Assembly (NCBI GenBank): GCA_015709655.1
Contig: CP054181.1
Span: forward strand, 1,298,207 to 1,362,206
From: Ignavibacteria bacterium
GTDB taxonomy: Bacteria; Bacteroidota; Ignavibacteria; Kapaibacteriales; Kapaibacteriaceae
Direction of reading: 5' to 3'
Length of the DNA: 64,000 bases
The notes below the pieces were generated by a model, which worked only from the letters and a program-made list of their open reading frames with translations, was not told the origin of the DNA and searched no databases. A program made the position numbers and the translations under genes. Below, piece by piece: positions 6,276 to 12,416 of this stretch (position 1 is the first letter of the stretch; each line of letters begins with the position of its first letter).

Positions 6276-6746
6276 ATGGAACCGGCTGTAGGTGCAAAAG
6301 CACCATCATTTACACTTACTGCAGATACCGGCGAGGAATTTTCGCTGAAAACTCTTCTCGGCTCCTGGGTGGTGCTCTATTTCTATCCTGCGGATATGAC
6401 GCCAACGTGCACCAACCAGGCATGTTCCTTTCGGGATAATATGGAGCTTCTTGCCCGTGAGAACGTCACGGTTGTTGGTATCAGCCCCGATGATGTTGAT
6501 TCACACCTGAAATTCAGGTCGAAAAACAACCTGAACTTCATCCTGCTGGCTGATCCCGAAAAAAAAGTTCTTGAGAAGTACAACACCTGGAAACTTAAAA
6601 AAATGTACGGTCGCGAATACATGGGCGTCGTACGGACTACCTTCCTTATCGATCCCAAAGGCATAATTCGAAAAGTGTGGAATAAGGTTAAGGTGGCAAC
6701 CCAAATCGATGACATTACCACCACTCTTTTGCAAATGAAGCAGTGA
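6276..6746 (+). CDS. bcp: Thioredoxin-dependent peroxiredoxin, BCP/PrxQ type
   Basis: Reduces hydrogen and organic peroxides with electrons from thioredoxin; cytoplasmic. At 156 aa it has the usual BCP length. The peroxidatic cysteine is C45 in TPTCTNQACSFRD, and the resolving cysteine is C50, five residues later as in the E. coli BCP subfamily. The common PG in the motif (MTPGCT) is PT here. The thioredoxin-fold core (VVLYFYPADMTP, then VVGISPDDVDSHLKF) and the late TFLIDPKGIIRKVW strand are clear. The TGA stop overlaps the GTG start of tatD by four bases (GTGA), suggesting translational coupling. Confidence 0.93.
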   Translation: MEPAVGAKAPSFTLTADTGEEFSLKTLLGSWVVLYFYPADMTPTCTNQACSFRDNMELLARENVTVVGISPDDVDSHLKFRSKNNLNFILLADPEKKVLEKYNTWKLKKMYGREYMGVVRTTFLIDPKGIIRKVWNKVKVATQIDDITTTLLQMKQ

Positions 6747-8308
6747 TCGATTCACATGCACATATCGATACCACACCATTCGCTGCTGACCGTGCCGAAG
6801 TTCTTCAACGCGCCTGGGATGCCGGCATAACGTCAATCATTATCCCTGACATTCAACCTGAACATCGCGATAATCTGATAAGCATTACCAGTAGCGATCC
6901 CCGGTTATACAGAGGTATTGGCGTTCATCCTCATCACGTTGCCAATCTGCCGGAACAAGAACTTAACGAAATTGATAAAGGGGCTTTGGCAGACCGCGTT
7001 GTTGCAATTGGTGAAATTGGCCTGGATTATCATTACGACTTTGCCCCTGCCGAGACCCAGAAAGAATGGTTCCGGGCACAACTGCAACTCGCAAAAAAAC
7101 ATCATCTCCCCGCCATCATTCATAACCGTGAAGCTGATAACGACATTCTGGATATCCTGCATGACGAACAGGACGGTACGTTACAAGGCGTACTGCACTG
7201 CTTTAGCAGCGATACAGAAGTACTTAGGAAGGCGCTCGACCTTGGAATGCTTGTGTCGTTCACAGGCAATATCACCTTTAAGCGTTCGACTTTAGCCAAC
7301 GTGGTGCGCTACGTACCAACCGACAGATTTATGATTGAAACCGATGCACCGTACATAACTCCTGAACCCTATCGCGGAAAGCGAAACGAACCGGCATATG
7401 TTGCACGTGTTGCCGGCAAGATTGCCGAAATTAAAGGACTCTCCATGGACCAGATTATCGACTTTTCTACTACAACTGCTAAGAAATTCTTTGCCCTGTG
7501 CGCACTGATTGTAGTTTGTACGATTACGGCAGTAGCACAGCCTACACCACCACGCGATGAAGATTATCCGTTTGACAGAGACTGGGAAATTGCTCTTGAC
7601 AATTACTACGCTGACAGTGTAGCATGGGAAAAATGGATTAAACCACGGCGCCTTGGTGTTGGACTGAGCATTGGCACCTTAACCGTGGTGGAACTTCAGC
7701 AGTTCCTTCAACGATACAACTACCGCAGTACCAGCGTACCTACTGACCCGTCAAGATGGACGTATTATCAGCGCGGTGAAGGACCGGAGCGATCGTTTTC
7801 ATTTGAAAGCTTGTCAGCCATAGGCGGTACTGTCACCTACGGATTGTCAACAAACGTAGTTCTGGAAGCCTCGGGTTTTTATTCCCAGAACACTAAACCG
7901 GCCAAGGACTTCGGGCTTGATCCCATTACCACGATAATGGCCGAGTTTACTGCCCTTTACTCACTGAACCCCTACAGCAAAATCAACTTTCTGCCTCAGG
8001 CCGGACTTTGCTATGCAAGTATTGACGATGGCACCCTTACCCGCACAAAGTTTGGCGTTAACACAGGTCTGGGTATTGGCATCAACATCCCCACCAAGAT
8101 CGGTCTGTTTTATCCGGTGTTCAATATCCGCTTTAACTTCTTACTGGGTACCGATGAGAACCGTGTAGTAACTCGTTATATCGACCCGATTGTGGGCGGG
8201 ATTTACCAGAACAGCACAAATCCGAATATTAAATCAGAAGATCTTGCCGATGTGAATTCGATTTACTCGTTGCCACGGCTGACCATTTTATACTACCTTC
8301 CATTCTGA
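6743..8308 (+). CDS. tatD: TatD-family metal-dependent hydrolase fused in frame to an outer-membrane beta-barrel-type protein (521 aa)
   Basis: Residues 1-250 form a complete TatD hydrolase with all expected metal ligands: H5 and H7 (DSHAHID), E91 (AIGEIGLDYH), H127, H152 (LHCF) and D201 (ETDAPY). TatD enzymes are Mg-dependent 3'-5' exonucleases/deoxyribonucleases of the cytoplasm and normally end where this domain ends, at TTTAKKFFAL. Here the frame continues without a stop through a hydrophobic stretch (249-265, then AVAQ) and a 250-residue region rich in alternating, aromatic strands (YNYRSTS, VVLEASGFYSQN, FNIRFNFLLG). The end, LTILYYLPF, is typical of an outer-membrane barrel. A cytoplasmic nuclease joined to an exported barrel makes little sense as one polypeptide, so separate translation from Met235 is likely (see the next feature). 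Starts with GTG overlapping the bcp stop. Confidence 0.85.
   Translation: MIDSHAHIDTTPFAADRAEVLQRAWDAGITSIIIPDIQPEHRDNLISITSSDPRLYRGIGVHPHHVANLPEQELNEIDKGALADRVVAIGEIGLDYHYDFAPAETQKEWFRAQLQLAKKHHLPAIIHNREADNDILDILHDEQDGTLQGVLHCFSSDTEVLRKALDLGMLVSFTGNITFKRSTLANVVRYVPTDRFMIETDAPYITPEPYRGKRNEPAYVARVAGKIAEIKGLSMDQIIDFSTTTAKKFFALCALIVVCTITAVAQPTPPRDEDYPFDRDWEIALDNYYADSVAWEKWIKPRRLGVGLSIGTLTVVELQQFLQRYNYRSTSVPTDPSRWTYYQRGEGPERSFSFESLSAIGGTVTYGLSTNVVLEASGFYSQNTKPAKDFGLDPITTIMAEFTALYSLNPYSKINFLPQAGLCYASIDDGTLTRTKFGVNTGLGIGINIPTKIGLFYPVFNIRFNFLLGTDENRVVTRYIDPIVGGIYQNSTNPNIKSEDLADVNSIYSLPRLTILYYLPF
7445..8308 (+). CDS. Probable separate outer-membrane barrel protein started inside the tatD frame (287 aa)
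   Basis: An in-frame ATG at 7445 (Met235 of the fused frame) is preceded by AAAGGA with a six-base gap, a good Shine-Dalgarno arrangement. From this start the protein would begin MDQIIDFSTTTAKK, followed by the hydrophobic core FFALCALIVVCTITAVA and a plausible cleavage before Q. This is a conventional signal peptide whose first residues double as the last helix of TatD. The remaining ~255 residues look like a small outer-membrane barrel (porin-like or PorV/DUF-type; no family recognised). The alternative is a genuine fusion, or a lost stop codon through a sequencing or evolutionary indel. The internal start is inference, but the site is visible in the sequence. Confidence 0.5.
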   Translation: MDQIIDFSTTTAKKFFALCALIVVCTITAVAQPTPPRDEDYPFDRDWEIALDNYYADSVAWEKWIKPRRLGVGLSIGTLTVVELQQFLQRYNYRSTSVPTDPSRWTYYQRGEGPERSFSFESLSAIGGTVTYGLSTNVVLEASGFYSQNTKPAKDFGLDPITTIMAEFTALYSLNPYSKINFLPQAGLCYASIDDGTLTRTKFGVNTGLGIGINIPTKIGLFYPVFNIRFNFLLGTDENRVVTRYIDPIVGGIYQNSTNPNIKSEDLADVNSIYSLPRLTILYYLPF

Positions 8309-8319
8309 TTTCATAGCGT

Positions 8320-8940
8320 ATGGTTACCGAACTCGGCGGAACTGGCATCCAGCATGAACTGTCAATCATCAGGTCAGTAGATACCGATATCCCCCGATTT
8401 CGGTCAGCAATTCACAGAATAGGACTCCATCTGGCAGTAGCGGTGAGCGCGCGTTTAAGCAGCGACCCCTGCACCGTAACCACGCCACTGGCCACAATTG
8501 AATCCCAGCGTATCCACGGCAACATTATCCTGGTCCCGGTGCTCCGTGCTGGACTGGGTTTGCTTCAGGCATTCCTTGACATTTTCCCCGATGCGCGGGT
8601 AGGCTTCCACGGATTACGTCGTAACGAGCAAACACTGCAACCAGCCGAGTATTATTCACGGTTCCCCGCTACTACACTGCAAACAACCATGATCGTGCTT
8701 GACCCCATGCTTGCCACTGCAGGCAGTATGCGTGCCACCATCCAACACCTGCAACGGCTGCCACATCATAAGATGATGGCAGCATGTATCATTGGAGCTC
8801 CGGAAGGTAAGGCCCTTATGGAACAAGAACATCCTGCGGTGGACGTAGTTGTAGCAGCTCTGGATTCGCATCTAAATCCTCATGGTTTTATCGTACCCGG
8901 ATTAGGTGATGCCGGAGACCGTTTATTTGGCGCTGACTAA
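8320..8940 (+). CDS. upp: Uracil phosphoribosyltransferase
   Basis: Converts uracil and PRPP to UMP in pyrimidine salvage; cytoplasmic. Recognised by the PRPP-binding loop VLDPMLATAGSM, the RNEQTLQPAEYYSRFP segment and the C-terminal GLGDAGDRLFGAD, all in the expected order. The 206-aa length matches the family. The canonical ATGGS is ATAGS here, a mild variation. It begins 11 bases after the tatD/barrel stop, probably in the same operon. The AT-rich bases after the stop contain only a weak stem (8951-8956 with 8964-8969), not a convincing terminator. Confidence 0.94.
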   Translation: MVTELGGTGIQHELSIIRSVDTDIPRFRSAIHRIGLHLAVAVSARLSSDPCTVTTPLATIESQRIHGNIILVPVLRAGLGLLQAFLDIFPDARVGFHGLRRNEQTLQPAEYYSRFPATTLQTTMIVLDPMLATAGSMRATIQHLQRLPHHKMMAACIIGAPEGKALMEQEHPAVDVVVAALDSHLNPHGFIVPGLGDAGDRLFGAD

Positions 8941-9315: not shown

Positions 9316-10470
9316 TTACAAACCCAGTTCAAGAGCAACGGCTTTTACAAGTGCATCAACTTCGGGTTGTGTGGTATAACCATGAATGCTGAATCGTAAA
9401 ATCGTGGCGTCAAGCCACGTTAAGCAAATGCACTGAATACTATACTTTTCCAGCAGAACACGCTGGAACTGTGCTGAATCCAAAACCATTGGTACCAACA
9501 CCGACCCCATCATCAACCTGTGCTGTTCCCAGTCGGACTGCACAGGTTGAATTGTATTATGAAGGCTGCATAGTGCCTGAACACCATACTGTACCAGCAA
9601 ATGCGAGTCGGATATCACTTTGTTCCAGTTGCTTTTTTTCATCCACCGCTGTGCTGCGTGAATTGTTAAAAAACATGATGGATCGCGCGTACCCAAATAT
9701 TCGTGCTCATCAATAAACGTACCGTCGTTTACTGATGTCCACGTATTGCCCCAGCTACCAATAAGGGGCGGAACATGTTGCTGCAGATGTGGTGCTACCC
9801 AAAGCATACCCGATCCCTTGGGCATACACATCCATTTGTGACAGTTAGCGGTGTACATGTCTGCACCGAGCACTCCAAGGTCAAGGTCAATATGCCCAAG
9901 GGCATGTGCACCGTCAACCAGCAACAGTACTTTTTGCCGTTGCGTAAATTCTGCAAGACGCTCTACTGGCATACGCGCCGCCGTCGGCGATGTGATATGG
10001 CTAATAAAAACGGCCCGTGTTTTCCCGGTAATTGCCTTTGTTATGATATGCATAACCGTTTCAGCATCCGGAACTGGGATTGGAATGGCAACGGTTGAAA
10101 TTGTTATGCCTGTACCTTGCAGGTGGAACTCCCATGCACGGCGGCATGCACCGTATTCATGATCCGTTAATAGTATCTCGTCGCCGGCATTAAGATAACG
10201 CGCCATGGCGTACGCCATAACGTTGGCGCCATAGGTGCTGTTGGTAACAAACACCAGGTCAGTGCGCCGTGCTCCCACCATTTGGGCAAGCTGTTCACGA
10301 GCCTGCTGCATACGTTCAGGGAGAGCATGAAAAAACGCTACAGGTTCCTTTTCAAGCAGCTGCTGCCACCGAAACTCTTCATCTAAAATTTCTTTCGGAC
10401 ATGCCCCGAACGAACCATGGTTTAGGAATACAACGTCGGGATTCAGTAAGAAATCGCTTCTGTCCATCAT
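9316..10470 (-). CDS. PLP-dependent class V aminotransferase, isopenicillin-N-epimerase-like
   Basis: Fold type I PLP enzyme of the aminotransferase class V / cysteine desulfurase superfamily, cytoplasmic. The N-terminal FLNHGSFGACP is the hallmark of the isopenicillin N epimerase-like branch. PLP contacts are D186 and H189 (LVDGAHALG), and the Schiff-base lysine is K212 in NCHKWMCMPKGSG. At 384 aa it is of normal length. Members of this branch act on diverse amino acids, and the name does not imply beta-lactam synthesis. Its ATG overlaps the stop of the OmpA-family gene by four bases (ATGA), making it the last gene of a six-gene minus-strand run. Why an amino-acid enzyme is coupled to envelope genes is not clear. 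Confidence 0.88.
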   Translation of the reverse strand: MMDRSDFLLNPDVVFLNHGSFGACPKEILDEEFRWQQLLEKEPVAFFHALPERMQQAREQLAQMVGARRTDLVFVTNSTYGANVMAYAMARYLNAGDEILLTDHEYGACRRAWEFHLQGTGITISTVAIPIPVPDAETVMHIITKAITGKTRAVFISHITSPTAARMPVERLAEFTQRQKVLLLVDGAHALGHIDLDLGVLGADMYTANCHKWMCMPKGSGMLWVAPHLQQHVPPLIGSWGNTWTSVNDGTFIDEHEYLGTRDPSCFLTIHAAQRWMKKSNWNKVISDSHLLVQYGVQALCSLHNTIQPVQSDWEQHRLMMGSVLVPMVLDSAQFQRVLLEKYSIQCICLTWLDATILRFSIHGYTTQPEVDALVKAVALELGL

Positions 10471-12416
10471 TGTTGACCTTTTTGTGCAATTCGGATACGG
10501 ACGGCTCGCTGATATGCACGTTCGGCCGGGTTATGTGCGGTCTGCGGGTCTGCCGATGTAAATTCATACGTTACCATGGCCGACGGTATTCCAAGGTATC
10601 TAACGGCTGCTTCGGCTCTCTTAATTTGAAGCTGCCGATTGTAGTCAGCTGAGCCAAATTCGTCAGTTCCGGCTATCACCGTAATGAAAGCCCCTTCCCG
10701 GATCGCCTTCCGTACTGAATCGGCAACCCGAATGTTGACGGCTGAGAATGAGTCCGAATCAAAATCAAATAGGGCCAGAAGTATGGTGTTACTGTTAACG
10801 CCACGCAGATCAGTTTGTTCAACTTTTTTACGTACAAGATTTTTCTGTACAATGGTAACGATTGCAGCGGCAGTTGCCATTACACTATTCGAATCGGCAT
10901 CGGTGGTGCGGACGGTTACCAATATCGGCCGCGAGATGGCCTGATTGGTGGTTGCGTGATTAAACGTCATGGTAACAGGTATCACGGGTTCGGTTGTTAC
11001 GCTTTGGGTTGTGGTTCCGCCTTTCACGGTTACGTACGAGGTGCAGGGCGGCGCTCCGCATGTTAGCACATGCATTGCAGAGAGCTGTACGGGATCGGCA
11101 TAGGCTGCCACCGATTCTGAGTATCGGTGCAGCATTCTGGCCTGCTCGCCAAGACGAACCTTAACGTACCGGGCTTCTGCCGCCAGCTCAGGCCGTGCAG
11201 TTGAGTCAGCTCTCTTCATCACAATACGTACCAGGTTGCGATCTACATCCAGCATGTCGATTAGGGCTGATAAACGCGACCGTGACAGACTCGGGTCTTC
11301 GTCATACGATGTTGATCCGGTTAACTCCATCAGTTCGCGCTGATCAGTTGCATCGACTACTGACTGCCGGACAGCCTGGGCAAAGCGTACCAGCGCTTCC
11401 TGACCACCAATGGGTTCAGTGCTGTTATAGTGGTAATACAATACAGGCTGCACTGCGCAGATGGTGTCGGTAATGGTTGCATTTATTACAGGTACGATAA
11501 TCGTATCATTTCTAACCACTGCATGTTCCGACTGCGCGGCAAGAATTAAACTCGAAACCGGAACCGGCTTCACCTGTGGCGGCGGTGGTGGCGGCGGCGG
11601 CGGAGGAGGAGGAGGAGAGGGCCGGGGGACTGCATACGAAAACAGTACTCCGGCATCAATGCCGGAAATTACCCAGGGGGCAGCCTTTGTAATACTGCTC
11701 AGGCCGACCGTATAGCTTGCAAAAGGAAAAAAGTTGATGTCTTTTGTCAATGGGACCCGGTATAGCGCAGCCAGACGAATACTAAACGTTAATGACGTAG
11801 GCTGCGGAAGCTGACCCTGTTGGGCTTCGCGTATTCGGGTTCCGTTTTCAAAAACATACGCCGGATCTGCCGGAGCCACAAGTTCCTGCTGTTGCTCCAG
11901 GTGTGTGGTTAGTGGAACTCCAACGCGGATACCCGTCAGTAGAAAGACGTCTGTAAGGGGCGTAGGGAGTAGGGCAGCAGGCTCAACCTCGAAGGTCGTG
12001 TACGAAAGGCTGGCACGGTGTTCAACAATACCATCAGTTACCGAAGTACCGCTGATGATGTTACCCACTTCTTCGTTCTGCAAGGCAGTCCCGGGTAATA
12101 GACGGAGTCCACCCATAACACCCACCTGAACTGCTCTGTTAAATAACTTTAGCGGTGTAGTAGTAAAAATGCCAACGCCAAGTCCGGCACTAACCCCAAA
12201 TCCGTTGGTGTATGAGCTGCAACAATTGGGGAAACCCGGCAATTCAGTGAAGTCCAAACTGTGAACCGAGGCGCCTCCGAAAACCTGACCTACCAGGATT
12301 GTGCCTGATTGATTGCCAGAAGAATCTGTATCGGCTCCCTGCATAACAGTAACCGACAGTACAATCACCACATACCGGAATATCATCCCGAGTACAGAAT
12401 CCCGTGTATGAAGCAT
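10467..12416 (-). CDS. OmpA-family outer-membrane protein with polyproline linker (649 aa)
   Basis: An N-terminal hydrophobic export signal (MIFRYVVIVLSVTVMQGAD; Met11 could be the true start) precedes a ~230-residue domain with barrel-like repeats of glycine and aromatic residues. A run of 13 consecutive prolines follows (bases 11577-11615). The C-terminal ~100 residues form an OmpA-like peptidoglycan-binding domain: FDFDSDSF, the TDEFGSADYN loop and LQIKRAEAAVRYLGI supply the Asp and Arg that bind diaminopimelate in this family. Between linker and OmpA domain, residues about 300-540 are beta-rich and unrecognised. Likely role: anchoring the outer membrane to the cell wall. Its ATG directly follows the TAG of the 1206-aa gene, and its stop overlaps the aminotransferase start. 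Confidence 0.87.
   Translation of the reverse strand: MLHTRDSVLGMIFRYVVIVLSVTVMQGADTDSSGNQSGTILVGQVFGGASVHSLDFTELPGFPNCCSSYTNGFGVSAGLGVGIFTTTPLKLFNRAVQVGVMGGLRLLPGTALQNEEVGNIISGTSVTDGIVEHRASLSYTTFEVEPAALLPTPLTDVFLLTGIRVGVPLTTHLEQQQELVAPADPAYVFENGTRIREAQQGQLPQPTSLTFSIRLAALYRVPLTKDINFFPFASYTVGLSSITKAAPWVISGIDAGVLFSYAVPRPSPPPPPPPPPPPPPQVKPVPVSSLILAAQSEHAVVRNDTIIVPVINATITDTICAVQPVLYYHYNSTEPIGGQEALVRFAQAVRQSVVDATDQRELMELTGSTSYDEDPSLSRSRLSALIDMLDVDRNLVRIVMKRADSTARPELAAEARYVKVRLGEQARMLHRYSESVAAYADPVQLSAMHVLTCGAPPCTSYVTVKGGTTTQSVTTEPVIPVTMTFNHATTNQAISRPILVTVRTTDADSNSVMATAAAIVTIVQKNLVRKKVEQTDLRGVNSNTILLALFDFDSDSFSAVNIRVADSVRKAIREGAFITVIAGTDEFGSADYNRQLQIKRAEAAVRYLGIPSAMVTYEFTSADPQTAHNPAERAYQRAVRIRIAQKGQQ

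Follow-up and report, generated by a model that had tools for sequence, protein, structure and literature searches.

A TatD nuclease frame joined to a predicted outer-membrane barrel in Kapaibacteriales, with a conserved internal start codon

Features of the fused frame

The window, meaning the whole 64,000-nucleotide stretch of DNA that was analysed, contains a single open frame at 6743–8308 on the forward strand that runs from a TatD nuclease through a signal peptide into an eight-stranded barrel. The frame encodes 521 amino acids between a GTG start and a TGA stop (8306–8308), with no stop codon inside it. Its first half is a complete TatD nuclease. The DNase domain (6743–7498, forward strand, residues 1–252) is matched by PF01026 over residues 2–250 of 521 (profile positions 1–252 of 253), scoring 261.2 bits against a cut-off of 27, and by TIGR00010 with 254.2 bits against a cut-off of 206. 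It has the full set of TatD metal ligands (HxH, E, H, H, D), and the residues concerned (H5, H7, E91, H127, H152 and D201) are invariant in the 38 relatives aligned; nuclease activity is inferred. TatD ends at about L252 (codon 7496–7498), and a hydrophobic run begins directly after it without a linker.

The neighboring genes lie close by. An upstream peroxiredoxin-like ORF (6276–6746, forward strand) overlaps the TatD start by 4 nt, and a downstream uracil phosphoribosyltransferase-like ORF (8320–8940, forward strand) starts 11 nt past the stop. Further along the window, an ORF at 10467–12416 on the reverse strand has an apparent signal, a proline-rich linker and a C-terminal OmpA-like domain. 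These three names come from sequence only. Rfam families have no match anywhere in the window. Many of the genomes compared also encode a second TatD-like hydrolase (e.g. G000:C1:1868269-1868694), which matches positions 56–202 in a frame of about 225–280 aa, and the fused TatD is therefore not the sole member of its family there.

After the final TatD helix the protein reads ALCALIVVCTITAVA and then Q, with the hydrophobic run closing in ITAVA just before Q266. The inferred signal peptide, MDQIIDFSTTTAKKFFALCALIVVCTITAVA (7445–7537, forward strand), has the last TatD helix as its n-region, an assignment based on the sequence, the helix model and the motif in relatives. A cleavage-like site (AVA before Q) falls behind codon 7535–7537, giving a predicted mature N-terminus of QPTPPR. 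The full-length model has one unbroken predicted helix from residue 235 to 264, leading from TatD into the signal. A cleavage-like [ASC]Q motif is present in 95 of 101 fused relatives, and the maximum 12-mer hydropathy averages 2.71 in fused relatives versus 0.84 in TatDs fused to a radical SAM domain.

The remaining codons (7538–8305, forward strand) encode an inferred mature outer-membrane barrel of eight strands with a C-terminal F, as judged by AlphaFold2 and structure alignment. The barrel model has a pLDDT of 89 and eight long strands, and aligns structurally to OmpA (Z 18.1), NspA (Z 17.7) and OmpW (Z 17.5). The barrel half of the window protein does not meet the PF13505 cut-off (17.9 versus 28.7 bits), and weak matches to this profile occur in 9 of 38 relatives. 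In the alignment of relatives the last barrel residue is mostly F, W or similar. The second half is thus predicted to be an OmpA/OmpW-like eight-stranded outer-membrane barrel with a signal peptide and a C-terminal aromatic residue; export and insertion are inferred. An earlier, sequence-only reading had proposed that a TatD frame runs without a stop into an exported barrel-like protein, and that the last TatD helix and the signal n-region share the same bases and frame. The first claim held on the strength of profiles, ligands, barrel model and relatives, and the second is supported by the sequence and the predicted helix.

Conservation of the fusion

Searching 391 genomes of the class identified the barrel in 82, all within the window's own order and spread over 10 families. 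The order name Kapaibacteriales is taken from the relatives' named records, which are Candidatus Kapaibacterium and Ignavibacteria metagenome-assembled genomes. These 82 genomes come from the 95 available for the order, and the barrel match always lies in the TatD frame, bar three pieces cut by a contig end. The same was seen among the 40 relatives searched, where the barrel half is present in 37 and, unless a contig end truncates the piece, shares the TatD frame. Of the 13 order members lacking a barrel match, nine have a TatD frame of fused length (479–541 aa); the other four have a fragment, a TatD paralogue only or no TatD match. A check for relatives with a stop codon between the TatD and barrel halves found none in any genome compared.

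In two further families of the class, a single frame likewise encodes TatD, a signal peptide and a barrel (f13, 5 of 5; f19, 11 of 11 with a TatD match). Profile comparison with the order's barrel gave 99.8% probability for the f13 barrel and a weaker 94% for that of f19. Other families of the class have TatD with a radical SAM domain (TIGR04038) or TatD alone, and the TatD frames listed for sampled genomes of other classes are mostly about 255–300 aa. In a quick TatD tree, all 101 fused sequences fall on one side of a branch with SH-aLRT support of 90. A barrel-profile search of 118 class genomes found no free-standing barrel, with 19 of 19 matches in fused frames.

The fusion is therefore real and order-wide, and neither local nor accidental. 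One rival explanation, which the sequence-only reading had left open, is a recently lost stop codon, or a sequencing or assembly error that joined two genes. Its sole support is the oddity of joining two cellular compartments. Against it, the same join is present in every intact relative across the order's 10 families and two more, in independent assemblies, and the comparative data rule it out for practical purposes.

Some lineages differ in the layout of the join. In f19 (L066, L072–L074, L163–L172) a long, charged, coiled-coil-like insert lies between the signal peptide and the barrel, and L073 and L170 of this family have a short linker between TatD and the signal, still without a stop. 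In L151 and L152 (f7) an added linker, IPTRISGGN..., separates the end of TatD from the signal peptide; the frame stays open, and the Met is kept without a Shine-Dalgarno (SD) sequence. An ancestral separate barrel gene was also sought by profile search in fetched outgroup loci, and none was found beside unfused TatDs. At eight loci read in f11, f26 and f27, the frame directly 3′ of TatD is an LptB-like ABC ATPase, identified by sequence only.

Internal start codon and Shine-Dalgarno sequence

Within the TatD domain, an in-frame ATG at 7445–7447 (forward strand) is the inferred start of an exported 287-aa product, and relatives have an ATG in the same TatD region. The SD-like sequence AAAGGA (7433–7438, forward strand) is written in the TatD codons for K and G, with a 6-nt spacer to the ATG; in relatives, GAGG or GGAG stands 8–9 nt before the Met. 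The sequence-only reading had proposed this start, this upstream element and a product of 287 residues; the sequence features held, and the product remains inferred. The window's genome has two copies of the canonical 16S tail, GGATCACCTCCTT. Taken alone, its AAAGGA is not significant (duplex energy −4.6, p = 0.13).

The Met itself is strongly enriched. Of 101 distinct fused genes, 92 have an in-frame ATG within the final 25 codons of TatD, versus 3 of 28 TatDs without a barrel. These 28 references end after TatD or join a radical SAM domain. The excess may partly reflect ancestry, given just 28 references in separate clades. Relative to the final TatD F, the Met lies at −17, −9, −10/−11 or −15, and these differing positions rule out a single inherited residue; the −17 state changes at least 9 times on the tree, and the −9 state at least 12 times. 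Strict phylogenetically independent pair contrasts on the TatD tree yielded too few pairs, and significance was not reached. The internal ATG is missing in nine of the 101 genes: five in f5 (L027, L032, L114, L118 and L120, all of one genus), L140, two of f19, and L007, which has a GTG behind CGAGGA in its place.

Codon choice upstream of the Met gives independent evidence. Pairing with the 16S tail before the junction ATG averages −4.8 kcal/mol, versus −2.6 when synonymous codons are shuffled; for 662 other ATGs of the same genes, the corresponding values are −1.54 and −1.68. Where the Met is at −9, 34 of 35 genes use a G-ending codon for the E, K or Q four positions upstream (expected 8.6, P = 6e-22), which yields GAGG, AAGG or CAGG 8 nt before the ATG. 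The bias persists when genes are counted as 80%-identity clusters (27 of 28, P = 1e-16), and cluster-level counts carry weight because wobble positions, by inference, should be near saturation between clusters below 80% protein identity. Without a Met at −9, this column shows no bias (12 of 27 G-ending, 13.4 expected). Among 74 testable TatD columns in the −9 group the SD site ranks top (z = 9.7; next 3.1). For the Met at −17, GCGGAG is present in 14 of 14 genes of the window's own family, versus 1.8 expected. The preference for GAG reverses when the Met position changes (Fisher 2e-5 and 1e-5; by cluster 5e-5 and 4e-4). The codon statistics show selection for a conserved internal start and ribosome-binding site beyond chance, with exceptions; the product is inferred. 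In f13, f19 and most of f7, the Met is present and the SD signal is absent.

In these genes the start of TatD itself lacks any SD bias (mean −1.68), with 12% of these starts at −6 kcal/mol or below versus 61% of junction ATGs. SD use in the window's genome was assessed over 304 kb, made up of the window and twelve 20-kb stretches; 19% of clear starts there reach −4.5 or below versus 16% of internal ATGs. Ordinary genes of this genome thus show little SD use, consistent with reports that Bacteroidia ribosomes do not recognise SD sequences in general (PMC9976891); how strongly its ribosomes read SD sequences is not settled by this. A further alanine codon, lying about 33–35 nt ahead of the internal ATG in L005–L023 (f1), is written GCG in 14 of 16 genes (expected 3.9) and is usually followed by GAA or GAG, and AAA. 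This site is too distant to act as an SD.

There are other possible explanations for the element before the Met. SD-like sequences within genes have been discussed as pause elements, and the internal sequence could slow the ribosome before the signal peptide emerges rather than mark a start site. We regard this as very improbable: the spacing to the Met is fixed at 8–9 nt, the element relocates with the Met, and a pause needs no Met. A second alternative is a pure polyprotein, in which only the full-length chain is made, the internal signal serves as an anchor, and signal peptidase splits TatD from the barrel. Several observations favor it, as no relative has a stop, the signal peptide and cleavage-like site are kept in 95 of 101, f5 and L140 keep the fusion without an internal ATG, and f13 and f19 lack the SD signal. 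It nevertheless leaves unexplained the wobble-level GAGG or GGAG at fixed spacing before the Met, the Met excess and the bias that moves with the Met, and we therefore consider it unlikely.

A two-product model

Our preferred interpretation is that the locus is probably a conserved nested gene with two products, both of which are inferred in the absence of expression or protein data. Ribosomes starting at 6743 would make a TatD–signal–barrel precursor, as inferred from the lack of a stop. Because no stop separates the halves, TatD would be made solely as the N-terminal part of the full-length chain, barring an unseen frameshift, and ribosomes from the TatD start would also make the full-length precursor, so that the two products coexist. 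Other ribosomes would start at 7445, inside the TatD frame, and make a barrel protein with its own signal peptide, a product that is likewise inferred; in most relatives this initiation would be guided by the SD written in the TatD codons. The sequence-only reading had listed dual-product coding and read-through fusion as separate options. The former is supported by independent codon-level evidence, with protein evidence absent, and the latter is not a separate option, since without a stop it coexists with the internal product.

The barrel is predicted to pass through Sec, be cut after AVA and insert in the outer membrane, as inferred from motif, fold and C-terminal aromatic residue. The precursor would probably enter Sec as an N-in signal anchor and also be cut by signal peptidase after AVA, which would release one more barrel and leave a cytoplasmic, active TatD carrying a membrane tail at its C-terminus. 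The internal start would add barrel without TatD; here selection of the start is shown and the product inferred. The two chains differ in predicted peptides: GLSMDQIIDFSTTTAK of the window genome is unique to the full-length chain, and the internally started product has the predicted N-terminus MDQIIDFSTTTAK (possibly formyl-). As the last TatD helix doubles as the signal's charged n-region, any stop placed at the join would be expected to break one of the two halves. The join may not have been lost because selection on either product would hold it.

The single frame and the continuous predicted helix over the join could also suggest one unsplit TatD-barrel protein, for example with an uncut anchor keeping TatD at the inner face. 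This is most unlikely, given the outer-membrane-type terminal aromatic residue and the conserved cleavage-like site. With an inner-membrane anchor still attached, the barrel would be unable to get to the outer membrane, and selection of the internal start would be unexplained. We also considered a programmed frameshift giving TatD alone, and rejected it as no slippery heptamer is held in common at the join. Stops in the +1 frame lie only a little nearer than in controls (the nearest within 45 nt in 70% versus 52%), and in the other frame the reverse is seen (23% versus 58%).

A bolder form of the two-product model can also be put forward, to which we give slightly less than even odds. It holds that the nested gene is as old as the order, that the internal SD sets barrel output, and that the full-length chain is a true polyprotein from which signal peptidase would yield an inner-membrane-tethered nuclease and an outer-membrane barrel, with one segment acting as both enzyme helix and Sec n-region. 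If so, lineages without the internal start would depend on the polyprotein route alone.

Relation to known systems

Among the closest known layouts is that of FbcH of Bradyrhizobium japonicum, reportedly a cytochrome b/c1 polyprotein with an internal export signal cut by signal peptidase. In both cases, two proteins in one reading frame are joined by an internal export signal. The TatD-barrel frame meets this layout, with its single frame, internal export signal, cleavage-like site and lack of a stop; processing by signal peptidase is inferred. In FbcH both halves belong to a single complex, the first of them being a membrane protein; in the present gene the partners are a soluble nuclease and an outer-membrane barrel, and the internal start is selected. 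The bacterial genes cheA, infB and clpB have in-frame internal initiation, and similarly a second start inside the gene gives a shorter in-frame product. Those genes yield truncated versions of one protein, while the internal product predicted here is a different protein for another compartment, and its start sits in codons of the upstream enzyme.

The TatD-linked radical SAM proteins (TIGR04038) of neighboring families of the class also have TatD with a C-terminal fused partner. Their partner is instead a radical SAM domain, and the signal peptide and internal Met are absent in 14 of 14; TIGR04038 has no match in the window protein, versus 214 and 229 bits in the neighboring families. OmpA, NspA and OmpW share the barrel fold (Z 17–18) at only 9–15% identity to the TatD-linked barrel, and none of the three is known to be fused to an enzyme. 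The gene thus combines two known kinds, internal in-frame initiation and the internal-signal polyprotein, in a combination unreported in the literature searched. No paper linking Kapabacteria and TatD was found in the open-access literature searched.

The locus provides a natural, long-conserved case in which an export signal and one helix of a folded enzyme are written in the same bases and the same frame. It offers a direct test of whether bacterial internal-signal polyproteins are processed in vivo, and of whether SD sites are recognised in a Bacteroidota lineage that seems to make little use of them in its ordinary genes. Gene callers presumably label the frame as one TatD hydrolase, in which case an outer-membrane protein has been missed in the order's genomes. 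Turning to public records, two genomes titled Bradyrhizobiaceae bacterium and Melioribacter roseus P3M-2 (L094 and L097) carry the fused gene with a barrel half 44–59% identical, and the taxonomy in these titles looks misassigned.
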